Shown here piece by piece: positions 24,553 to 51,555 of a DNA stretch of 64,000 bases (its first letter is position 1; every line of letters begins with the position of its first letter). Below the pieces are notes generated by a model that worked only from the letters and a program-made list of their open reading frames with translations, was not told the origin of the DNA and made no database searches. The position numbers and the translations under genes are program-made. The DNA is from Bifidobacterium breve (lineage in GTDB: Bacteria; Actinomycetota; Acidimicrobiia; Acidimicrobiales; Acidimicrobilacustridaceae), in NCBI GenBank assembly GCA_945862505.1, contig CAMAYJ010000001.1:37184-101183 (forward strand), written 5' to 3'.

Positions 24553-26142
24553 ATGACTGATGCTTCTTGGGACACTGCCGACCTCAACCGACCGGTGTAT
24601 GCCGCTGATCTGATTATCAACGCGCTGAACCGCACCCCGGACAATCCGGCGGTGAACATCATCGGTCAGCGTGAGATGACCGCTCGCGAAATGAGCGCGA
24701 TGGTTAGCCGCTATTCGCAGGCACTGGCATCTAAAGGTTTGACGCAGGGCAAGCAGTTGTCGGTTCTCGCTTTAAACCGACCGGAAGTGCTCTTCAACAT
24801 GGCGGCGAACCAGATCAACGCCACGCGTTCGACGCCGTTGCACCCGATGGGTTCGGTCGATGATCAGGCTTATGTGTTGTCTGACTGTGGGGCCGAAGCA
24901 CTTGTCTTTGATCCGGACAATTTCACTGATCGGGCGCGTGAACTCGCTGAGCGTGTTCCCACGATCAAGCACTTCCTCTCCCTCGGTCCATGTGAATTCG
25001 GCGAGGATCTCGACGTACTCGCGATGACGTTTGAACCGAAACCACTCGTTGCTCCGCATGTTCAGGCAGAGGACCTCGCGGGCATCTCCTACTCAGGGGG
25101 AACGACAGGAAAACCCAAAGGAATCATGAGTAGCTATCGCGGCGGCGCTGCGATGGTTCAGATTCAAATGTCCGAATGGCAGTGGCCGGAAGAAGTGCGG
25201 TTCCTGATCTGCACGCCACTTTCGCATGCAGGCGCAGCGTTTTTCACGCCCACACTGCTCAAGGGTGGTTCACTCACCGTTCTTCCAGGTTTTGATCCTG
25301 AGAAGTTCATGCAGACAGTGCAGGACCATCGCATCACCGCCACGATGTTGGTGCCGACGATGATCTATGTACTTCTTGATCATCCCAAGTTCGATCAGTA
25401 CGACCTGTCGAGTCTTGAAACCATTTTCTACGGAGCGTCTGCCATTTCGCCGACGCGCTTGGCCGAAGGTATTCGCCGTATGGGTCCGATCTTCTTCCAG
25501 TTCTATGGCCAAGCCGAGTGCCCGATGACGATCACCGTTTTACGCAAAGAAGACCACGACCCCAACAACCTCGAACGTTTGGCCAGTTGTGGGCGCCCCG
25601 TGCCGTGGTTGCACGTCGCGCTTCTCGATGACGACGGCAACGTGGTGCCACACGGCGAACCTGGTGAAATCTGTGTGCGGGGTCCGCTCAATATGAAGGG
25701 GTACCTCGGAAAGCCCGAACAAACGGCTGAGGCCTTTCAGCATGGATGGCTCCACACTGGCGATGTGGCACGAGCCGATGATGAAGGGTTCCTCTACATC
25801 GTCGATCGCAAAAAGGACATGATCATCACTGGTGGCTTCAACGTTTACCCACGTGAAGTTGAAGATGTCATCTCTACCCACCCTGCAGTTTCTGCGGTAG
25901 CGGTGATTGGTGTTCCCGATGAGCGTTGGGGCGAGTCGGTCAAGGCGGTTGTTGTTGTTCGTCCTGGTGAGTCGGTCGACGCTGAAGAACTCATCGCATT
26001 GGTGAAGGAAGCAAAGGGTTCCGTGCAGGCACCAAAGACCGTGGACTTCATCGACGCCATCCCGTTGAGTGCACTCGGCAAACCCGACAAGAAGACACTC
26101 CGTGCGCAGTACTGGGGTGACGGCGGCCGGCAGGTGAACTGA
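24553..26142 (+). CDS. AMP-dependent acyl-CoA synthetase/ligase
   Basis: ISYSGGTTGKPKGIMSSY, GWLHTGDVARADDEGFLYIVDRKKDMIITGGFNVYPREVEDV, PLSALGKPDKKTLR. Confidence 0.9.
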   Translation: MTDASWDTADLNRPVYAADLIINALNRTPDNPAVNIIGQREMTAREMSAMVSRYSQALASKGLTQGKQLSVLALNRPEVLFNMAANQINATRSTPLHPMGSVDDQAYVLSDCGAEALVFDPDNFTDRARELAERVPTIKHFLSLGPCEFGEDLDVLAMTFEPKPLVAPHVQAEDLAGISYSGGTTGKPKGIMSSYRGGAAMVQIQMSEWQWPEEVRFLICTPLSHAGAAFFTPTLLKGGSLTVLPGFDPEKFMQTVQDHRITATMLVPTMIYVLLDHPKFDQYDLSSLETIFYGASAISPTRLAEGIRRMGPIFFQFYGQAECPMTITVLRKEDHDPNNLERLASCGRPVPWLHVALLDDDGNVVPHGEPGEICVRGPLNMKGYLGKPEQTAEAFQHGWLHTGDVARADDEGFLYIVDRKKDMIITGGFNVYPREVEDVISTHPAVSAVAVIGVPDERWGESVKAVVVVRPGESVDAEELIALVKEAKGSVQAPKTVDFIDAIPLSALGKPDKKTLRAQYWGDGGRQVN

Positions 26143-26339
26143 CCTTCGGGGCCTTCCAGGTCTCTCGCAGTTCCGGCGAAATAGTTCACAGAGGAAACTT
26201 TCTCTGGGGGTTGTCTGCCGGTAATGTCGTCGGTTCATCGCCCAGCCCCAAGGTCCGATTCGGAACACTAAGGTGGCGTGGGTCACAGTTTGATAACAAT
26301 TCGCAGCAACGTTCCTCATCGGGGACGAGGGGGCACAGA

Positions 26340-28610
26340 GTGCAGACATTCCTGCAATACACAATCTTGGGTCTTGCTCTTGGTGGCGCCTATTTCATCG
26401 CCGCATCCGGTCTTGTTGTGACTTACACGACCTCGGGCATCTTCAACTTCGCCCAGGGCGCAATCGCGATGCTCGCGGTCTTCACCTACTGGCAGTTCCG
26501 GTGGGGATGGGGATGGCCGGCCCCTCTGGCCCTACTCATGGTGCTCGGCATTTTGGCCCCACTTCTGGGAGCGGTTCTCTATCAGGTCGTGATGAAAAAT
26601 CTTCGTGGCACCTCTGAAGTCACCAAGATCATTGTGTCGATCGGCGTCATGCTCGGCTTGCAGGCGCTGGCAACTTGGGTTTGGAACCCAACCTCAAGTA
26701 CGCCGCGTCAGTTCCAAAAGTTCTTTGGACCAAACGCATTCGCTCATTTTGGAAGCCTCAGGGTTCCGTGGCACATCATCATTTCGTTCATTATCGCCAT
26801 CGCCATCGCGGTTGGTATTCGGTTTCTTTTTGTCCGCACCCGTTCTGGTGTTGCTATGCGAGCAGTTGTCGACGATCCGGAGCTCCTGCAGCTCAATGGC
26901 GGTCGCCCTGAACGTCTCGCGATGATCTCCTGGGCCGGTGGCTCATTCCTTGCAGCGCTGGCTGGCATCCTCATCCAGCCAATGATCGGTTCGGCCATGA
27001 GCGCCGGAGCGCTCACCCTTCTTGTCCTCGATGCATTTGCTGCCGCGATGTTTGGTCGCCTGCGCAGCCTTCCTCGCACCTTTATGGGTGCCCTCATCAT
27101 TGGTCTCACCACGACCTATGTCGTGGCCTACTTCCCGAGCAAGTGGACCTGGTCGAGTTCATTCCGCAACTCACTGCCGATGATCTTCCTTTTCATCATT
27201 CTTCTTGTGCTTCCGCAGGATCGTCTTCGAGGGGCAACGGTTCTCCGGCTTCGTGAACGATTCCGTATGCCTTCAGTGCGTACGGCATGGATTGCTGGGC
27301 TCACGATGATGATCGTGGTGTTCTGCCTCAAGGTCATCATGGCCAAGACGGGCGTCAATACGCTGACGCTTGCCCTCACCTTCGCGATTATTGCGTTGTC
27401 GTTGGTGCTCCTTACGGGCTTTGCCGGCGAGATCAACCTCGCTGCACTGTCGTTTGGCGCCATCGCTGTCATGGTCGTGTATCACTTCGGAATTTCCGGT
27501 ACCGGCACTGAGGCGCGCACAACGCTTTGGGGGATCCTTCTCGCCGCGGTGGTGACTGCTCTGGTCGGCGCACTCATTGCATTGCCTGCACTGCGATTGC
27601 GGGGCCTTTATTTGGCTCTCGCCACAATGGCATTTGGTGTGTTCATTTCCCGCATGGTGCTTACTGAGCGCTCCGAGAGGGAAATCTTTGGTTTGAAGTT
27701 CACGCTGTTCACATCGGGTCAGCTTGCAATTCCACGGCCAAAAATCGGTCCGATTGACTTCAATGGTGAGGACGCGTTCCTTTTCCTTTGTGCAGGGTTA
27801 TTCGTAGTCATAGGAATCGGCATGGTGTACCTGCGCCACAGCGGGTACGGGCGCCGCTTGACTGCAATGAAAGACAGCCCGGCGGCATCGGCCACACTTG
27901 GCATGAGCGTTGTCCGCCTCAAGCTTTCGATTTTTATGATGTCGGCAGCAATCGCCGGAATTGGTGGCGTCATGATGGCAGCGCAGGTCGGCACCGTGAA
28001 TTCCGATCGCTTCGACATCTTCTTGAGTCTTGCCCTCGCGATGATCACGGTTGTTGGTGGCATTGGCTACGTGTCGGGCGCGTTGTTCGCTGGGATCTTC
28101 TTGATCGCATTTATCGAAACGTTGAATCTCATGCTTAAGAAGTTTGCTGTCGATTACTCGAGCCTCGAGGCGATCTTTATGTTCTTCATCTCAGCGGTCA
28201 CGGTGCTGCCGGCAACGATCGGCATCACCATGGGCAAGAACCCCTCGGGTGCGGTGAGCGACATCGTCGAAGGAATGAATAAGGTCAAGCAGTCCAAGCC
28301 TCTCATGATCACAGTCATCGGTCTTGAAGCAGCGATCTGGGCGCTTACCGCTACGGAAGTCATCACCAACTGGCACTTCGTGATCTTGACGTTCGCGAAT
28401 CTCATCCTCGTGCCGATGGTCGGCGGGAAGTTCCTCATGGCCCGAGCGATGCGGGGTGTTCCAAAACCAGTACCACCTGAACTGATCGGAATCGATCGCC
28501 CATTTACCGATGAAGATCTGGCTGCTATGGATCAGGCGCTCAATCTTGATGGCGTTGTGATCCCGAGTTCGACCACCGTGCGAGAGGAGCCGGCAAATGC
28601 CTCTGCTTGA
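26340..28610 (+). CDS. Branched-chain amino acid-type (LIV/HAAT) ABC permease, LivH-LivM fusion
   Basis: N-terminal LivH-like GLALGGAYFIAASGLVVTYTTSGIFNFAQGAI; C-terminal LivM-like GFAGEINLAALSFGAIA...LPALRLRGLYLALATMAFG; GTG start 26340. Confidence 0.9.
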   Translation: MQTFLQYTILGLALGGAYFIAASGLVVTYTTSGIFNFAQGAIAMLAVFTYWQFRWGWGWPAPLALLMVLGILAPLLGAVLYQVVMKNLRGTSEVTKIIVSIGVMLGLQALATWVWNPTSSTPRQFQKFFGPNAFAHFGSLRVPWHIIISFIIAIAIAVGIRFLFVRTRSGVAMRAVVDDPELLQLNGGRPERLAMISWAGGSFLAALAGILIQPMIGSAMSAGALTLLVLDAFAAAMFGRLRSLPRTFMGALIIGLTTTYVVAYFPSKWTWSSSFRNSLPMIFLFIILLVLPQDRLRGATVLRLRERFRMPSVRTAWIAGLTMMIVVFCLKVIMAKTGVNTLTLALTFAIIALSLVLLTGFAGEINLAALSFGAIAVMVVYHFGISGTGTEARTTLWGILLAAVVTALVGALIALPALRLRGLYLALATMAFGVFISRMVLTERSEREIFGLKFTLFTSGQLAIPRPKIGPIDFNGEDAFLFLCAGLFVVIGIGMVYLRHSGYGRRLTAMKDSPAASATLGMSVVRLKLSIFMMSAAIAGIGGVMMAAQVGTVNSDRFDIFLSLALAMITVVGGIGYVSGALFAGIFLIAFIETLNLMLKKFAVDYSSLEAIFMFFISAVTVLPATIGITMGKNPSGAVSDIVEGMNKVKQSKPLMITVIGLEAAIWALTATEVITNWHFVILTFANLILVPMVGGKFLMARAMRGVPKPVPPELIGIDRPFTDEDLAAMDQALNLDGVVIPSSTTVREEPANASA

Positions 28611-29337
28611 AACTATTGGCGTCAAAGTTCGTTTCGGCGGAAACATTGCGCTTGACGATGTTTCGATTTCGGTCGAAGCCGGAAGTGTCACCGGGCTCAT
28701 TGGCCCCAACGGTGCGGGTAAGACCACGTTATTCAACACGATCACTGGGCTTCAGGCGCTCACTAGTGGGCAGATCCTCTTTAATGACAAAGACGTCACC
28801 AAGGAACCACCGCATAAGCGCACTCGTATGGGTCTTGCCCGCACGTTTCAGCGCCTCGAATTGTTTACGACGCTCTCGGTGCGCGACAACATTCGTGTTG
28901 CCGGCGAAATCCGTAACCGCTGGAGCCTTCGGACTCCGAAGATGGACGTCAATGCCGAAACCGATCGCATCATCAGCCTGGTCGGGTTGAGCGATGTCGC
29001 CGATCGCGAAGTTGGCGAGATTCCGACCGGAAAGGCACGAGTCGTCGAATTGGCCCGTGCCCTCATGATCCAACCGACGCTTGTTCTTCTCGATGAACCT
29101 GCTTCTGGCCAGACCGAAGAAGAAACTGGGCAGTTCGGACAACTGTTGCGTGACCTTGCTGGCGAAGGCCTCGGAATCTGCCTTGTTGAGCACGACATGT
29201 CGTTAGTCATGCAGGTCTGCGAAACCATTCACGTGCTTGATTTCGGTCGCATGATTGCAAGTGGCTCAGCAGAGTCAGTTCGCAATAATCCGACCGTGAT
29301 CGATGCCTACCTTGGTGCTCCGGAGAGTGTCGGATGA
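28597..29337 (+). CDS. LIV-type ABC transporter ATP-binding protein (LivG-like)
   Basis: GLIGPNGAGKTTLFNTITG, LARTFQRLELF, LVLLDEPASGQ. Confidence 0.9.
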   Translation: MPLLETIGVKVRFGGNIALDDVSISVEAGSVTGLIGPNGAGKTTLFNTITGLQALTSGQILFNDKDVTKEPPHKRTRMGLARTFQRLELFTTLSVRDNIRVAGEIRNRWSLRTPKMDVNAETDRIISLVGLSDVADREVGEIPTGKARVVELARALMIQPTLVLLDEPASGQTEEETGQFGQLLRDLAGEGLGICLVEHDMSLVMQVCETIHVLDFGRMIASGSAESVRNNPTVIDAYLGAPESVG

Positions 29338-30074
29338 GCGAAGCCCACTACCACGAAGATCATGGCGCCGTTGACGGAGCACCGTTGGTTGAACTTGTCG
29401 ACGTGCGCGCTGCGTACGGAACCATTGAAGTGCTCCACGGGGTCAGCCTTTCAGTTCCGCAAGGTTCCGTTGTTGCGCTCCTTGGCCCGAACGGCGCCGG
29501 CAAGTCCACGATTCTTAAGGTCATCTCTGGATTGCTGCCGCCCACTTCCGGCGAAGTTCGGCTCGCTGGTCGCATGGTGAATGGCGCTTCAGCTGATGAA
29601 CTTGCACGCATTGGTTTGTGCACCATTCCCGAAGGTCGCGGAGTGTTTCCGAACCTCAGCGTCCGAGAGAACCTTTGGATGGCGACCATGGCAGGCGTTC
29701 CGCTTGCCCAGGTTGAAGAAATCGCTTATGCCCGTTTCCCTCGTCTTGGTGAACGTCGCAAGCAGCTTGCCGGCACATTGTCCGGCGGCGAACAGCAAAT
29801 GTTGTCGATGGCACGGGCTCTGTCTGTGAATCCATCGGTACTGCTCCTCGACGAATTGTCGATGGGTCTGGCCCCGCTCGTCGTGGCCAACCTCTACGAG
29901 ATCGTGGCTCAGGTCTCGCAAGAGGGCGTGTCGATCCTGGTGTCCGAGCAGTTTGCTCGGACGGTGTTGGGCATTGCTCAATACGCCGCGATCGTCCTCC
30001 ACGGGAATATCACCAGAGTGGGTACTCCTGCTGAGCTCGAAGATGAATTGTCCGCTGCCTACCTTGGATCTTGA
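29334..30074 (+). CDS. LIV-type ABC transporter ATP-binding protein (LivF-like)
   Basis: LLGPNGAGKSTILKVISGLL, LSGGEQQMLSMARAL, LLLDELSMGLAPLV. Confidence 0.9.
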   Translation: MSEAHYHEDHGAVDGAPLVELVDVRAAYGTIEVLHGVSLSVPQGSVVALLGPNGAGKSTILKVISGLLPPTSGEVRLAGRMVNGASADELARIGLCTIPEGRGVFPNLSVRENLWMATMAGVPLAQVEEIAYARFPRLGERRKQLAGTLSGGEQQMLSMARALSVNPSVLLLDELSMGLAPLVVANLYEIVAQVSQEGVSILVSEQFARTVLGIAQYAAIVLHGNITRVGTPAELEDELSAAYLGS

Positions 30075-30086
30075 GACCGGAGAAAA

Positions 30087-30455
30087 ATGGAAACCACTGG
30101 TGATCGCATTGAGCAGTTCAAGTCCGAAGTGACGGACCTGAACTTGAAGACTGGTAACCCCAGTCGAGAAAAAACACTTCAGACAATCGGCTTCGTCCTG
30201 ATGCTCGTCGGCATCATCGGCGGAATCATTTGCTACGTCGGCGCAAAGAACGCGAGCGGCGACGTCGGCATCGCAGCGGCCAAGATTCAAGAACAGATTG
30301 TCTTCGCAATCTGGTTCCTGATCCTTACCGTGGTTGGCGCAGCGATGTTCCTCCGCTACGCACTGGCCAGTTTCCTGCGCATGTGGCTTCTTCGTCAGCT
30401 CTATGAAGGTCAGGCCAATACTGACCGAATCGTCGACGCAGTCTCTAAGCGCTGA
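30087..30455 (+). CDS. Small two-TM membrane protein, transporter-associated (paralog of 51199..51555)
   Basis: RIEQFKSEV...TLQTIGFVLMLVGIIGGIICYVGA...IVFAIWFLILTVVGAAMFLRYALASFLRMWLLRQLYEGQANTDRI; clear similarity to the second copy. Confidence 0.8.
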   Translation: METTGDRIEQFKSEVTDLNLKTGNPSREKTLQTIGFVLMLVGIIGGIICYVGAKNASGDVGIAAAKIQEQIVFAIWFLILTVVGAAMFLRYALASFLRMWLLRQLYEGQANTDRIVDAVSKR

Positions 30456-31261
30456 TGGGCACCATTGTCGTGACCGGTTCCGGCTCGGGAATCGGTGCTG
30501 CGACCGCTGCACGTCTTCGCGCCGATGGCCACACGGTCATTGGTGTCGATCTGCGCGGTGCCGAAATCGAGGCAGACCTTGGTACTCCCGAAGGCCGAAA
30601 ATCGGCAATCAAGACAGTTGGCGAAGCATGTGGGGGAGTCCTTGACGGAGTCGTGACCTGTGCGGGTATCGCTGGGCTTCCGGGCCGTCCAGCATCGCTT
30701 CTCGCGTCGGTGAACTACTTCGGAACGGTCGAGATCATGGTCGGGCTCCGGCCGATGCTGGCCAAGGGCACCAATCCTTCGGCCGTCGCCATCAGTTCAA
30801 ACTCGACAACGACAGCTCCCGGTTACAGCCTTGCGCTTACCGAGGCATGCCTCGCCGGAGACGAAGATGCCGCACGCATCGAAGCAGACAAGGGCAACTC
30901 GATCATTGAGTATGCAGCCACCAAGTTGGCTGTCGCTCGGTGGATTCGTCGTAATGCCATTACCGATGAGTGGGCGGGCGCAGGTATCCGACTCAACGCG
31001 ATTGCTCCAGGCATGATCGCCACTCCGATGATCGAGGAAGGCGCAACCGACGCGAACCTCAAAGTTCAACTCGACATGTTCAAAGACACGATCGCGCTTG
31101 GTCGTGCAGGCAAGCCTGAAGAAGTAGCCGCATTCTTGGCATTTCTTCTTTCACCCGAAGCTGGATTCTTTTGTGGTTCGGTGCTGTTTATCGATGGCGG
31201 TACCGACGCCCGGTTCCGTGCCGATGATTTCCCGGCGCGCTGGGAGATTCCTGGAATGTGA
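30455..31261 (+). CDS. SDR family oxidoreductase (3-alpha-HSD-like)
   Basis: IVVTGSGSGIGAATAARL, VTCAGIAG, YAATKLAVARWIRR; start overlaps the preceding stop. Confidence 0.85.
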   Translation: MGTIVVTGSGSGIGAATAARLRADGHTVIGVDLRGAEIEADLGTPEGRKSAIKTVGEACGGVLDGVVTCAGIAGLPGRPASLLASVNYFGTVEIMVGLRPMLAKGTNPSAVAISSNSTTTAPGYSLALTEACLAGDEDAARIEADKGNSIIEYAATKLAVARWIRRNAITDEWAGAGIRLNAIAPGMIATPMIEEGATDANLKVQLDMFKDTIALGRAGKPEEVAAFLAFLLSPEAGFFCGSVLFIDGGTDARFRADDFPARWEIPGM

Positions 31262-39491: not shown

Positions 39492-40475
39492 TTAGTTTCG
39501 AGGAGGGCCCTGTTGCCCAGGCGGGCCTTGCTGTCCCTGGGGTTGTTGACTCTGCTGGCCCTGCATTGGCGGCATCTGTGCGGCAGCACCTCCCGTTTGG
39601 GTTGTTGCTGTTCCGGTAAGACATCCGATGATGTACGGGAACTGCGTGGGAGTCAGGTGGTAGGCGTAGGTGCCGTCGGCTTCGACGCGCCCGTTGCACG
39701 CGTCGAGTGTTCCCGGATCGGTGCCGCCACTGAAGGAGTAGGCCTTCCAGACATAGGACTTCGAATCTCCAGTCTTGGTGTAGCCGCTCTTGGCGAGCGT
39801 TGTCTGTGAGCAGTTTGCGTCGAGGCAGATCACCGAGTTGTAAATCGGGAATCCATCAATAGCGAAGCCCACGAGTTGTGAGGTCTCGAAATTGCAGACG
39901 GCTTCGGTGTAAATGATCGTGTGGTAGTGGTAGTCAGAACTTGGGCCAGTGTGCCCACCGCAGTAATCCATGAGTCCATTTCCCACAGGATCTCCATACG
40001 CTTCGGCCGCCGGCATAGGCCCCTCGGTCGGCCCGTAAATCGCGATTCCAGTCACTGTGAAACCAAGAGTTCCCAACCGATTTTCGATGTTCGTCGGTGC
40101 AGCTGATTTGGTTGGTTTCAGCGGAATCTTCCAAGTGAAGTTCTGTGGCGCCAAAGCATTTGGGGTCTTCGAAACGAACCCGTAGGAGATCATGTTGTTC
40201 GACGTGACGGTCACCTCGGTATCGGTGCACGCAACCGTCACTTTTGGTGCGGCGTAATTGGCGCCAGCGCTTGTTCCGCTGAGGTCAGGGAACGCGCTGG
40301 TTGGGCAGGTGCCAAAAGCGGGGTGACTTGTGAGGAGGCTGGCGTTGCTGGCCGCAGTTGTTGTGGAGGTCGGCATGTCGCTCGTCGAATCGGTCGACGC
40401 GCTGGCGCACGCGAGTGCTCCAGCAAGCAGAACAAAAAGAAGTGGGAGGAGAATGGTACGACGTCGATTTCTCAT
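39492..40475 (-). CDS. YHYH domain-containing lipoprotein
   Basis: Lipobox-like LLAGALAC, YGDPVGNGLMDYCGGHTGPSSDYHYHTI, AYHLTPTQFPYIIGC; Gln/Pro/Gly tail. Confidence 0.75.
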   Translation of the reverse strand: MRNRRRTILLPLLFVLLAGALACASASTDSTSDMPTSTTTAASNASLLTSHPAFGTCPTSAFPDLSGTSAGANYAAPKVTVACTDTEVTVTSNNMISYGFVSKTPNALAPQNFTWKIPLKPTKSAAPTNIENRLGTLGFTVTGIAIYGPTEGPMPAAEAYGDPVGNGLMDYCGGHTGPSSDYHYHTIIYTEAVCNFETSQLVGFAIDGFPIYNSVICLDANCSQTTLAKSGYTKTGDSKSYVWKAYSFSGGTDPGTLDACNGRVEADGTYAYHLTPTQFPYIIGCLTGTATTQTGGAAAQMPPMQGQQSQQPQGQQGPPGQQGPPRN

Positions 40476-45894: not shown

Positions 45895-46059
45895 TCACGA
45901 ACTAATCGGAACTTTGGTTACCGATTGGTCACTTTGAGGTGATGGGCTGGCGACGGGGTCGTCGTCAACCCATCGGCGCTTTTGTGCCGACCGTCACACA
46001 GGAGTTTGTGAATTCGGTTATGGTTCGGAAAGTTGTTCAATAAACCCAGGGGGAATCCA

Positions 46060-47439
46060 GTGAAGCGAATTAGAGCAGGTGTGCTCATAGCGGCTCTCAG
46101 CGTCAGCATCCTTGCTGTCGGTTGTGGCCGTAGTGGGTCAGACAGCGAAAATGGTTCGGGCGAAAGTCCCGCAGCCAAGGCAAATGCCAATTGCACAAAA
46201 GAAGCACTGCAAGCTACTGAAATTGGCGTGAGCGCGGACACCATCACCGTTGAGGTCATGGCCGATACCGGTTCACCGTTGGCACCTGGTTTGTTCCAGG
46301 GCAATGTCGATGCGATGAACGCCTACGCCAAGTGGGTGAACGCCAATGGCGGTGTTGGATGTCGTCAGCTCAAGGTTGAAGCCTGGGATTCCAAGCTTGA
46401 TCCGACCGAGAGCAAAAATGGCATTATCAATGCATGCAAGACCGCTGTTGCGATGGTGGGTGGCAATGCATTGTTCAACCCCGACGTGACCGACCTTGGG
46501 AAGTGTGTTGATAAGGCAGGACAGCCGATTGGTATTCCCGACTTTGCTGCTCTCGCCAACGATGTGAACGAGCAGTGCGCTGCAAATGCTTGGATCGTTC
46601 AAGCGGTGTCCGAGCCCTGCACCGGAGTAAACACCGGAGTTCGTGACCTCAATGCTTTTGTTGGAGCAACGAACTTCTACAAGACGATCCAACCGAATCT
46701 CAAGGGTGTCTTTCTGGTCCCTGGTGATCTGCCCACCACGGTGCAGTCATCTACCTATCAGATCGAAGCTCAGAGGTCGGCGGGCGTGACGTGGATTGAC
46801 ACGATGAAGGTGTCGGGTCGTTCCGAGCAGTCAGCGTTCAACACGTACGTGCAGGCCCTGAAGACTGGCGGCGGCAACTACGCCTACATGGGCTCAAATG
46901 ACGTCGCTATGACGAAACTCCGTAAGGAAGCGAAGGCACAGGGGCTCACTGGCGTCGATGTATGGGCATGTTCACTGGCCTGCTACACCGAAAACTTCAA
47001 GACTGCTGGTGCTGATGTCGATGGCACCTATGTCTGGATGCAATTCGTTCCATTCGAGGAAGCCTCGAGCAATAAGACAGTGGAAACGTACGTGAATGCA
47101 ATGGGTGGCAAGCCTGATTCCTTTGGTGCTCAGGCATGGCAGGCCGGCATGGCCTTCACTCAGGCGGTCAATGAGATCGTCGCCGAAAAGGGTGCCAACG
47201 CAATCACTCGTGCAAATATCCTCGCGAAGATGAAGACGCTTTCATTCGACGCTGGTGGTTGGATTGGCAAGGCTCGCACTTCGCCGAAGGTGTTCTCTGA
47301 CTGCATGGTGATCATGCAAATCAATGGCGGCAAGTTCCAACGAGTCTTCCCCAAGGAAGTTGGCACGCTTGATTGCAAGAGTTCAAACATCGTGACTGTC
47401 AAGATTGATCCCGCGGCTGCTGCTGCAAATATCAAGTAG
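46060..47439 (+). CDS. LIV-type ABC transporter substrate-binding lipoprotein
   Basis: GTG start, signal VLIAALSVSILAVGCG lipobox, periplasmic-binding fold features, followed by permease/ATPase genes. Confidence 0.85.
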   Translation: MKRIRAGVLIAALSVSILAVGCGRSGSDSENGSGESPAAKANANCTKEALQATEIGVSADTITVEVMADTGSPLAPGLFQGNVDAMNAYAKWVNANGGVGCRQLKVEAWDSKLDPTESKNGIINACKTAVAMVGGNALFNPDVTDLGKCVDKAGQPIGIPDFAALANDVNEQCAANAWIVQAVSEPCTGVNTGVRDLNAFVGATNFYKTIQPNLKGVFLVPGDLPTTVQSSTYQIEAQRSAGVTWIDTMKVSGRSEQSAFNTYVQALKTGGGNYAYMGSNDVAMTKLRKEAKAQGLTGVDVWACSLACYTENFKTAGADVDGTYVWMQFVPFEEASSNKTVETYVNAMGGKPDSFGAQAWQAGMAFTQAVNEIVAEKGANAITRANILAKMKTLSFDAGGWIGKARTSPKVFSDCMVIMQINGGKFQRVFPKEVGTLDCKSSNIVTVKIDPAAAAANIK

Positions 47440-47524: not shown

Positions 47525-49729
47525 ATGCGGCTCAAAGTCAGTCCACGGCTGATTTCCGCGATTGTCGTTGGTCTCGTCATCCTTTTCTTGGTCAACAAGA
47601 ACTGGGGAGGAGCGTCAATTAGCGCGAAGACAATTTCGTCGTTCCTCGTTGTAGGTATTGCCCTCGGTGGCATTTATGCCATTACTGCCGGTGGCCTCGT
47701 TGTTACCTACGCCACAACTGGCATTTTCAATTTTGCCCATGCGGCTATCGGATGTTTTTTGGCCTTTTGTTATTGGCAACTCACGGTGAAGCAAGGATTA
47801 CCGACGGTGGTTGCACTGATCATCACGTTATTTGTGATCGCTCCCGCGATTGGGTTCCTACTCGACAAAGTGATTATGCGGCGCCTCCGCGATGCCGCAC
47901 TTGTTGTGCAACTCATGGTCACTGTTGGCCTGATGCTCACATTTATGGGCATCACGCTCACCATTTGGTCTCCAAAAACAGGCCGCTCCTTGCCCCAGTT
48001 CTTTCAAAACACTCAAGGCGTGCAGTTTGGCGATGTAACCGCAACCTGGCATCGGATTATCACCGTTGTCGTTGCGCTGCTCGTTGCTCTCGGATTGCGA
48101 TTTCTCCTGTACAAAACGCGCTTAGGCATTTCGATGCGGGCCGTTGTTGACAGTCGCAGTCTGGCTGGCCTCACTGGGGCAAAGCCTTCGATTATTTCTG
48201 GTTCCTCGTGGGCTTTGGGTTGCATGACTGCCGGCCTTGCCGGCATTCTGATCGCACCCGAGACCGGTCTCGTGGTTGAGAACCTCGCACTCATCATTGT
48301 TGTGGCTTCAGCCGCTGCTGCGATAGCGCAGCTCAAATCAATTCCCATGGCGTTTATTGGTGGTTTGGTGATTGGTCTGGCGAAGTCGTTTTCGGCGGTG
48401 TATCTCGAATGGGGCAAGGACTGGGCCTATGCCGACGAGGCTATTCCGGCTGCGATTTTGTTTATTGCTCTTCTGTTCCTGCCCATGGCCCGGCTCGAAA
48501 CCGGAAAGATCCGAATTACCAAACGCACTGAGCGCCTTACGAAACCTTGGGAGGCCGCACTCGGGGCTGGTGTGATGATCGCAATTGTTGGCGCGTGGGC
48601 GAACGGTTGGATCCCCTGGATCAGTGGCACGACCTTCGGCGAGCGCTCGACGGTCTGGCTAGGCCGAGGCGCTGGCTTCCTCGTCCTCGGTCTGGTCATG
48701 CTCTCGCTCATCCCATTGATTGGTTGGGCGGGGCAGGTGAGTTTCGCCAACTACGCGATCGCCGGTATCGGTGCAGTGCTGTTCTCTCACTTCGGTGGTC
48801 AGAACGGCGATGCCCTCGGCATCGTGTGGGTCATGCTGATTTGTGCACCGCTTGGTCTGGCCATAGCGCTTCCCGCTCTCCGACTAAAGGGTCTGTATCT
48901 CGCTCTCGCAACGATGGCATTCGCCGAAGTGGCCGACAAAGTACTTATTCGTCACCCAAGCATGCTCGACCCGTCGGCGACCGGCGTTTTGTTCAAGCCG
49001 GTGAACTTCTTCGGCATCACGATTAGTTCAAGTGCGAGTGATCGCAAAGCTTTCCTGATGTTTTTGGTCATCGCGTTTGCATTGCTGTTCTTTATGCTTG
49101 AGATGCTTCGCCGAACGCGTTGGGCACGGCGCTGGATCGCTATGTCTGATTCCCCGGCAGCTTCGGCCACTATCGGCGTCAATCTGACCACCACGAAGAT
49201 GATGGTGTTCATGTTGTCCGGAGCAATGGCCGGATTCGCCGGTTGCATGATTGGCCTGCAGCGTGGTGCTTTGTCCGTCGATTCGTTCCCCCTCTTTGCC
49301 GGGCTACCCCTCGTGCTGCTCATAGCGGTTCAGGGGGTTCGCTATCCCGTTGCTGCCTTCATGGGCTTCATCGGTTTGGCATCTTTTCCCGCGCTTTTCG
49401 AGGTGCTCGGTAAGCCGTCATGGCTCACGGCGATCGAACTCATCGGTCCAGGTATCGCAGCAATAGCCATGGCGTATCGACCCGAAGGGGCGGTCTTCTA
49501 TTCCGGTCGAGACCTCGCCGGCCTCTTACCCTGGCGAAAAGATGCACGTGAGGAAAAGGCGCTTGCCGTCGCCAAAGAACGAGAACAAAACATAGGCAAA
49601 GACGAGATCGGCGACATGGGTCTGACCCGCCCGTTCAGTGCCGACAAAGTTGCTCAACTCGACCGGGTCCTCGATATCACAGACCTTGTCGACGAACACA
49701 AGATGGCCCCAACCGGAGGCGCGTCATGA
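47525..49729 (+). CDS. LIV-type ABC permease, LivH-LivM fusion (paralog of 26340..28610)
   Basis: GIALGGIYAITAGGLVVTYATTGIFNFAHAAIG; GWAGQVSFANYAIAGIGAVL, LPALRLKGLYLALATMAFAEV. Confidence 0.9.
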   Translation: MRLKVSPRLISAIVVGLVILFLVNKNWGGASISAKTISSFLVVGIALGGIYAITAGGLVVTYATTGIFNFAHAAIGCFLAFCYWQLTVKQGLPTVVALIITLFVIAPAIGFLLDKVIMRRLRDAALVVQLMVTVGLMLTFMGITLTIWSPKTGRSLPQFFQNTQGVQFGDVTATWHRIITVVVALLVALGLRFLLYKTRLGISMRAVVDSRSLAGLTGAKPSIISGSSWALGCMTAGLAGILIAPETGLVVENLALIIVVASAAAAIAQLKSIPMAFIGGLVIGLAKSFSAVYLEWGKDWAYADEAIPAAILFIALLFLPMARLETGKIRITKRTERLTKPWEAALGAGVMIAIVGAWANGWIPWISGTTFGERSTVWLGRGAGFLVLGLVMLSLIPLIGWAGQVSFANYAIAGIGAVLFSHFGGQNGDALGIVWVMLICAPLGLAIALPALRLKGLYLALATMAFAEVADKVLIRHPSMLDPSATGVLFKPVNFFGITISSSASDRKAFLMFLVIAFALLFFMLEMLRRTRWARRWIAMSDSPAASATIGVNLTTTKMMVFMLSGAMAGFAGCMIGLQRGALSVDSFPLFAGLPLVLLIAVQGVRYPVAAFMGFIGLASFPALFEVLGKPSWLTAIELIGPGIAAIAMAYRPEGAVFYSGRDLAGLLPWRKDAREEKALAVAKEREQNIGKDEIGDMGLTRPFSADKVAQLDRVLDITDLVDEHKMAPTGGAS

Positions 49730-50469
49730 GTTCCATTCTCAGCACTCAAGATGTTGTTGTGCGCTTCGGCGTGCTTCAGGCGGTGTCACAGGCATCGATC
49801 GAAGTGATCGAAGGGCGAGTCACCGGACTGATCGGCCCCAATGGGGCCGGCAAGACAACGCTGTTCAACGTCATCACCGGATTGCAGGAGCCAACTGCGG
49901 GCAAGGTATTTTTCGACGGTAAGGACATCACGAACAAGACTCCGTTTAAGCGGGCTCGTTTAGGAATCGCACGAACGTTTCAGAAACTTGAAGTATTCGG
50001 CAGCCTTTCTGCTCGCGAAAACATTTTGGTGGCTGCCGAACAGCGCAAAACCTGGGATCGTTCGGGTTTTGATCCGGCAAAGGTATGCGATGAGATTTTG
50101 GCCAAAGTAGGCCTTTCTCATGTTTCAGAGTTCATGGTCGGAACCCTTCCAACCGGAACCGCTCGACTCGTGGAATTAGCGCGTGCCCTTGCGTCTAACC
50201 CGCGAGTGCTCCTGCTCGATGAGCCCTCCTCTGGTTTAAACGAAGAAGAGACTGAAGAGATGGCGGCCTTGCTCAAGACATTTGTCGAAGAAGGGCTTGC
50301 CGTGCTCCTTGTTGAGCACGACATGTCATTTGTTATGGGTACGTGTGAGTACATCCATGTTCTTGATTTCGGAGTCATCATTGCCGAGGGAACGCCGGCC
50401 GAAGTGCAGGCCGATTCGCATGTGCAAGCCGCCTATCTGGGCACCAAGACCGAGGAGCAAGCGTCATGA
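49726..50469 (+). CDS. LIV-type ABC transporter ATP-binding protein (LivG-like)
   Basis: GLIGPNGAGKTTLFNVITGLQEP, IARTFQKLEVF, VLLLDEPSSGL. Confidence 0.9.
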   Translation: MSSILSTQDVVVRFGVLQAVSQASIEVIEGRVTGLIGPNGAGKTTLFNVITGLQEPTAGKVFFDGKDITNKTPFKRARLGIARTFQKLEVFGSLSARENILVAAEQRKTWDRSGFDPAKVCDEILAKVGLSHVSEFMVGTLPTGTARLVELARALASNPRVLLLDEPSSGLNEEETEEMAALLKTFVEEGLAVLLVEHDMSFVMGTCEYIHVLDFGVIIAEGTPAEVQADSHVQAAYLGTKTEEQAS

Positions 50470-51173
50470 CCCCGATCCTCGAACTGAACAACATCCGGGG
50501 CGGCTACGGCACAATCGACGTGCTGCACGGCGTCAACCTCACACTCGAGGTCGGTCAGGTACACGCCCTTCTCGGGCCCAATGGTGCAGGTAAGACCACC
50601 ACGCTTGGGATCTGCAGCGGTCAGATCCTTCCCTCTGGCGGCCAATTACTGATGAGTGGTCGCGAGGTCAACGGAGTGAGCAGCGATGTTCTCGCTCGGG
50701 CAGGCGTTTGTTTGGTTCCCGAAGGACGGGGAATCTTCCCGAACCTCACCGTGACTGAAAATCTGCGCATGTTTACCCACGCTGGCGTGTCACTGACTGA
50801 TGTCCAAGACAAAGCATTTACGCAGTTCCCGCGCTTGAAGGAACGGCGCAAGCAGATCGCCGGAACGCTGTCTGGTGGCGAGCAGCAGATGCTGGCCATG
50901 GCCCGCGCACTTGCAGTGAACCCATCGCTCCTGCTCCTCGATGAACTTTCCATGGGTCTCGCCCCATTGATTGTTGAGGAACTGTATGAACGTGTGGCAG
51001 AACTCGCAGCGCAAGGTATTTCCATCCTCGTGGTGGAGCAGTTCGCCCAAGCCGTGCTGGGCGTGTCGACCGTTGCGTCGATCATGTTGCACGGACGAAT
51101 TACTCGTACCGGACCACCCGCTGAGATCGCCGAAGAACTGACCGAGGCGTATCTGGGCGGAACAACCCATTGA
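50466..51173 (+). CDS. LIV-type ABC transporter ATP-binding protein (LivF-like)
   Basis: LLGPNGAGKTTTLGICSG, LSGGEQQMLAMARAL, LLLDELSMGLAPLI. Confidence 0.9.
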   Translation: MTPILELNNIRGGYGTIDVLHGVNLTLEVGQVHALLGPNGAGKTTTLGICSGQILPSGGQLLMSGREVNGVSSDVLARAGVCLVPEGRGIFPNLTVTENLRMFTHAGVSLTDVQDKAFTQFPRLKERRKQIAGTLSGGEQQMLAMARALAVNPSLLLLDELSMGLAPLIVEELYERVAELAAQGISILVVEQFAQAVLGVSTVASIMLHGRITRTGPPAEIAEELTEAYLGGTTH

Positions 51174-51198: not shown

Positions 51199-51555
51199 AT
51201 GAGTAACACTGAAACCACCCCGTCGGCCCGCCTCCAGGAGTTCCAGGGCGAAGTCGACGCAATGAAGGTTGACGGAGGCAAGGCCAATCCGGAGCGAACA
51301 TGGGTCATCCTTGGTGCCCTGTTGATGATCGCCGGCATTGTGCTGTCACTCATCTCTTGGCTGACCCTTCAAAGCAGCGGCAAAGGCGCAAAGACCGAGG
51401 ACCTTCTCGCTATGGGAACATTCGGACTTGTCCTCGCCGTCGTGGGCGCAGCGCTCTTTATCGTGATGTCACTGCGTCGTTACTTCCGCTTCTGGCTTGT
51501 TCGTCTCATCTTCGAACAGCGCGAAGCGGCCGATCGCATTTCAGGCAAGAACTAG
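51199..51555 (+). CDS. Small two-TM membrane protein, transporter-associated (paralog of 30087..30455)
   Basis: RLQEFQGEVDAMKVDGGKANPERTWVILGALLMIAGIVLSLISW...MGTFGLVLAVVGAALFIVMSLRRYFRFWLVRLIFEQREAADRI. Confidence 0.8.
   Translation: MSNTETTPSARLQEFQGEVDAMKVDGGKANPERTWVILGALLMIAGIVLSLISWLTLQSSGKGAKTEDLLAMGTFGLVLAVVGAALFIVMSLRRYFRFWLVRLIFEQREAADRISGKN

Follow-up and report, generated by a model that had tools for sequence, protein, structure and literature searches.

A family of small proteins with two predicted transmembrane (TM) helices, for which we coined the working name SML, is encoded at the end of LIV-type ABC transporter operons in Actinobacteria, and we observe that SML, a C-terminal tail motif of the fused LivHM permease, and one clade of these permeases behave as a single unit of inheritance. 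Because SML is encoded with one importer branch in more than 100 operons, and is paired with a permease tail, it is probably an unnoticed extra part of the importer. On balance, sequence comparison leads us to favor a reading in which SML would be a standing accessory subunit that docks on the permease and stabilizes or assembles the transporter.

Two SML genes in two LIV-type operons

The window, i.e., the whole 64,000-nucleotide stretch of DNA analyzed, contains two LIV-type operons with an SML gene behind the gene for the LivF-like ATPase (Table 1). An earlier note on this DNA had described a 122-aa protein directly behind a LivF-like ATPase, and a second copy at the same place in the other ABC operon, and both observations held. 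The copy 1 gene begins with ATG after a gap of 12 nt from the LivF1 stop codon, with a ribosome-binding-like stretch (GGAGAAAA) upstream, and the copy 2 gene follows LivF2 after 25 nt, with GGAGGAAAC upstream. The two copies share 29% identity (tblastn, E = 1e-15), and they are the only two that turned up when we searched the entire assembly from which the window comes (2.3 Mb; completeness 99.55%). This genome encodes three fused LivHM permeases, the third of which is distant (29% identity, 103 bits).

Table 1. Features of the two SML-containing operons in the window
Feature	Positions	Strand	Evidence
SML copy 1, 122 aa, two-TM	30087..30455	+	ORF, homologues, conservation, structure model
SML copy 2, 118-aa paralogue behind second LivF	51199..51555	+	ORF, tblastn, conservation
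LivHM1, fused permease, operon 1	26337..28610	+	Two BPD_transp_2 domains (PF02653 stretches)
LivHM1 tail motif ELIGIDRPFTDEDLAAMDQALNLD	28479..28550	+	Co-occurs with compact SML
LivG1-like ATPase, operon 1	28597..29337	+	NCBIfam best match
LivF1-like ATPase, operon 1	29334..30074	+	NCBIfam best match
Substrate-binding protein, Peripla_BP_6, operon 2	46033..47439	+	PF13458, E = 1.1e-21
LivHM2, fused permease, operon 2	47525..49729	+	Matches UrtB/LivH and UrtC/LivM halves
LivHM2 tail motif DMGLTRPFSADKVAQLDRVLDITD	49613..49684	+	Motif profile
LivG2-like ATPase, operon 2	49726..50469	+	NCBIfam best match
LivF2-like ATPase, operon 2	50466..51173	+	NCBIfam best match

The ATPases of both operons have LivG/UrtD and UrtE/LivF as their top NCBIfam matches, under the equivalog cut-offs, and no subunit of either operon reaches an NCBIfam equivalog cut-off for Liv or Urt subunits. 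No binding-protein gene adjoins operon 1 (24553-31261), where an acyl-CoA synthetase-like gene lies 5′ of the permease and the 3′ end of SML overlaps the following SDR gene by one base (TGATG); this order is kept in relatives (L005, L009, L014, L147, L149, and L155). A further copy 1 orthologue (L007, 6001-6364; G008:C94) is split across two frames near residues 28-31, probably by an assembly error. The neighboring acyl-CoA, SDR, and amidohydrolase-like genes suggest that the substrate may be a catabolic compound rather than leucine. The catabolic gene region of the window also encodes (39492-40475, minus strand) a protein, predicted to be secreted and unrelated to SML, that contains a DYHYH stretch.

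SML is most conserved in its predicted cytosolic helix

The predicted parts of copy 1 are an N-terminal helix (residues 4-22), TM1 (about 32-54), TM2 (about 70-90), and a cytosolic helix that continues to about residue 120, and a structure model built from 14 sequences (pLDDT 71) places helices at 4-22, 25-56, and 63-121. The two hydrophobic segments and the basic/aromatic C-terminus that the earlier note read from copy 1 are both real; of its amphipathic N-terminus, the part that stands is a predicted helix with conserved R7, F11, and E14, and the amphipathicity of this helix is only slight (hydrophobic moments of 0.32 for copy 1 and 0.06 for copy 2). Conservation peaks in the predicted cytosolic helix after TM2, with R98 (99%), W100 (100%), R103 (100%), E107 (95%), D113 (87%), and R114 (86%) kept among 82 aligned sequences; within the TM helices, G35, G42, and G84 are conserved. 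The loop between the TM helices (about 52-69) varies in sequence and length and is uncharged or acidic. Since both ends of SML are rich in lysine and arginine, both are probably cytosolic (N-in/C-in), and the charge of the loop agrees with this topology, which we infer from the charge pattern and a model of moderate confidence.

The SML family and its distribution

SML homologues have been annotated to date only as "hypothetical". SML scores below the curated cut-off of every Pfam and NCBIfam model, a sequence search of PDB chains gave no match (best E = 0.92), and a Foldseek comparison of the SML model with known folds gave a best E of 0.45, with nothing below 0.001. DUF2207_C, SecE, Holin-X, and DUF7139 were rejected as homologues, since these matches are below cut-off and cover mainly hydrophobic stretches, and the fold matches to ExbB, AcrA, and subunit c were rejected as generic helical hairpins.

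We found SML to be near-universal in the bacterial family of the window (36 of 37 genomes), patchy in its class (79 of 395 sampled genomes at E <= 1e-3, with a few of the matches weak), and sparse in other Actinobacteria: a second actinobacterial class gave homologues in 43 of 395 genomes (E <= 1e-6), about half of which are strong matches, and a phylum sample gave them in 30 of 397 genomes, many of these matches being weak. For example, plasmid pLRE138 of Rhodococcus erythropolis R138, a host that can be cultured, encodes a 122-aa "hypothetical protein" (WP_037121664.1; H351_RS30375) that is an SML homologue, in an operon with a binding protein, a 752-aa fused permease (H351_RS30360), and two ATPases, in an order that matches the window.

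SML genes are linked to fused-LivHM operons

We fetched the loci of 124 distinct compact SML homologues (126 by script count, from which L248 and L249 were removed as long forms), and all 124, in a sampling of loci partly driven by SML matches, belong to LIV-type operons in which the LivHM permease is fused. LivF is the first Liv gene upstream in 120 of these (distance at most 248 nt, median 44); in two others the upstream ORF has LivG as its top match and ends within about 50 nt, and in the remaining two LivHM is directly upstream. Since homologues are equally placed in more than 100 other operons, the position of SML in the window is not due to chance. The converse search identified an SML homologue downstream of 33 of the 35 top fused permeases (at least 296 bits), in 44 genomes picked partly by SML presence and with a permease ranking independent of SML. 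More distant fused permeases lacked an adjacent SML in those inspected.

These counts bear on the proposal of the earlier note that the protein serves one subclass of transporters as their own accessory or regulatory subunit. Tabulating genomic neighbors demonstrated the predicted co-occurrence with fused LivHM-LivG-LivF, no compact homologue among the 124 lies away from an ABC operon, and no unrelated characterized family was matched at cut-off; together with the clade-marking presence of SML described below, the operon linkage supports the proposal at the level of sequence.

The strict gene order could also be explained by co-expression alone. SML might be a stand-alone membrane protein that merely shares the operon, such as an anchor for a catabolic enzyme or a membrane-stress protein, and both the one-base overlap with SDR in operon 1 and the many SML loci that adjoin acyl-CoA and SDR genes are consistent with this. 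We regard it as unlikely, given that the downstream gene varies among loci, that SML remains with LivHM in a locus where LivF and LivG are not adjacent (L132), and that a permease tail motif accompanies SML.

Contigs of metagenome-assembled genomes may hold frame errors, and one of these gave a false LivF::SML gene fusion (L134), with one frame open across both genes. We rejected this fusion: the true end of LivF is in another frame, and the apparent fusion was therefore produced by a one-base indel. In another locus (L127, 6086-7072; G051:C48), two SML operons with different permease subtypes converge on their SML genes.

SML is inherited with one permease clade and its tail motif

We built a maximum-likelihood tree from 117 fused permeases and rooted it by midpoint only. 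One clade (SH-aLRT 98) holds 102 members, 97 of which have an SML, compact or long; outside this clade, 14 of 15 fused permeases are without SML, and the exception, L183, forms a very long branch. The "SMLC" labels on this tree were set by a crude rule, and L104, L129, L137, L151, and L152 are actually compact. The five clade members without SML are the second operon of L126, where the contig stops before the expected place of SML, L180, L181, and two in L185; a few clade permeases manage without SML. Distances among SML proteins correlate with those of LivHM (r = 0.685), LivG (0.641), and LivF (0.534), compared with 0.675 between LivG and LivHM, and the observed rank correlation of 0.628 exceeds that of all label shuffles (at most 0.126). 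The SML tree tracks the permease as closely as the LivG tree does, and more than it tracks LivF. In addition, the closest relatives of each SML copy in the window are located in the same operons as the closest relatives of its permease.

Reading the C-termini of the fused permeases, we noticed a tail with the consensus PxExxGLDRPFTxEDxxxLDRxLGL, in which G718, R721, P722, D732, and L735 (LivHM1 numbering) are identical in both permeases of the window, their overall identity being 34%. We trained a profile on one half of the permeases with compact SML, and it matched 43 of 43 held-out permeases of this kind at E < 0.05, 41 of them at E < 1e-3. Applied to 19 permeases without SML, it gave four matches at E < 0.05 (L126, L181, and both in L185; two at E < 1e-3), all of which fall within the SML clade; no outside-group permease contained the motif. 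In genus g20 (five genomes), SML was not detected and none of the seven clade permeases has the motif intact, two terminating just inside it; this loss of SML and motif is one co-loss event rather than seven. Residue covariation between SML and the tail is only slightly above expectation, with 5 such pairs among the top 20 where 1.0 would be expected (85 related sequences); this is suggestive and is not proof. An AlphaFold model of the permease was set aside (pLDDT 36).

Long-form SML operons

Operons with a long form of SML occur in further actinobacterial groups and in a small number of order-mates of the window, and most of these loci have the order binding protein, LivHM, LivG, LivF, a secreted protein of about 500 aa, and long SML. 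Long SML has an additional C-terminal Cys/His domain that is weakly Ada-like (E = 0.014), and W-x2-R-x3-E is kept in five of the seven long forms examined. The same tail profile matched none of 13 permeases beside a long-form SML. The secreted protein has a C-terminal TM segment and resembles choice-of-anchor P weakly, scoring 26.0 bits where the cut-off is 27; this membrane-anchored protein without a known family, encoded between LivF (or LivHM) and SML in L140-L146, L183-L184, L232-L236, and L246-L249, is a possible sixth component of the transporter.

A proposed role for SML

We propose that, in one clade of actinobacterial LIV/HAAT importers with a fused LivHM, SML acts as a dedicated accessory protein and is the fifth subunit of the transporter. 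It would fold into a helical hairpin whose two ends lie in the cytosol, and its long C-terminal helix would exit the membrane and dock on the permease from the cytosolic side, where it would probably contact the conserved permease tail near the place at which the LivG and LivF ATPases bind. By holding this tail at the ATPase interface, SML may stabilize or tune the transporter, and would most likely aid the assembly or stability of the permease-ATPase complex. That SML binds the permease, where it docks, and in which direction it acts are all inferred here. A more tentative extension, to which we give somewhat less than even weight, is a five-part HAAT clade in which the SML helix clamps the tail, with related branches having swapped the tail for a longer SML that bears a metal-site-like domain, and having added a sixth, secreted and membrane-anchored component.

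If SML is a conserved extra subunit, the annotation and reconstitution of this HAAT clade have so far been incomplete, and the five-part arrangement, if true, would represent a new mode of ABC importer control at the permease-ATPase interface. W-x2-R-x3-E of SML and the permease tail form a conserved motif pair.

Comparison with known systems

HAAT/LIV importers (LivJ/K-LivH-LivM-LivG-LivF; TC 3.A.1.4) are the textbook case of a system with four components, and in Actinobacteria this transporter type is much duplicated. The operons of the window resemble them in having two BPD_transp_2 domains, LivG-like and LivF-like ATPases, and, in operon 2, a Peripla_BP_6 protein, and differ from them in that LivH and LivM form a single fused chain with an extra C-terminal tail motif, and in that LivF is followed by SML, a fifth gene that is conserved in 124 distinct operons. 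To our knowledge, the LIV/HAAT transporters described so far are without an SML-like subunit, as the earlier note had supposed, and our search of open-access full texts found no paper on such a fifth gene; we likewise know of no earlier description of the tail motif. Among small subunits of other importers, CbiN, which is encoded with the cobalt ECF-type importers that it serves, shares with SML two TM helices and a transporter-linked gene. The working part of CbiN is its extracytoplasmic loop, whereas in SML the inter-TM loop is variable and the predicted cytosolic helix is conserved.

Two actinobacterial systems bear on what SML may do. Mce1N (MSMEG_0959/Rv0513) negatively regulates Mce1, an importer of mycobacteria; it consists of two TM helices followed by a cytosolic C-terminal part, and by binding to the permease YrbE1B it displaces MceG, the ATPase (PMC10517005). 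SML shares this layout, as a likeness of layout with a predicted cytosolic part, and Mce1N differs in serving an MCE-type lipid importer and in having a longer cytosolic domain. SML could accordingly be read as an inhibitor, the cytosolic part of which would bind the permease, keep the ATPase off, and cut futile ATP use without substrate; the predicted cytosolic location of the conserved surface, and an SML tree nearer to that of the permease than to that of LivF, agree with this reading, which we consider rather unlikely, since SML is co-encoded directly behind the ATPase of one transporter and would thus be made together with its target. LucA and OmamA stabilize subunits of the actinobacterial importers Mce1 and Mce4 (PMC5487216), and, like SML, are actinobacterial membrane proteins of multi-part importers, of a different transporter class. 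On their example, SML might be a transient helper in the assembly or insertion of the fused permease that is absent from the mature transporter, and the genomic evidence for a standing subunit also fits such a helper; the near-invariant W-x2-R-x3-E and the matching permease tail would rather suggest a standing interface, and we consider the helper improbable. Mce1N and LucA/OmamA are published precedents, from within the same phylum, for the two directions in which SML could act.
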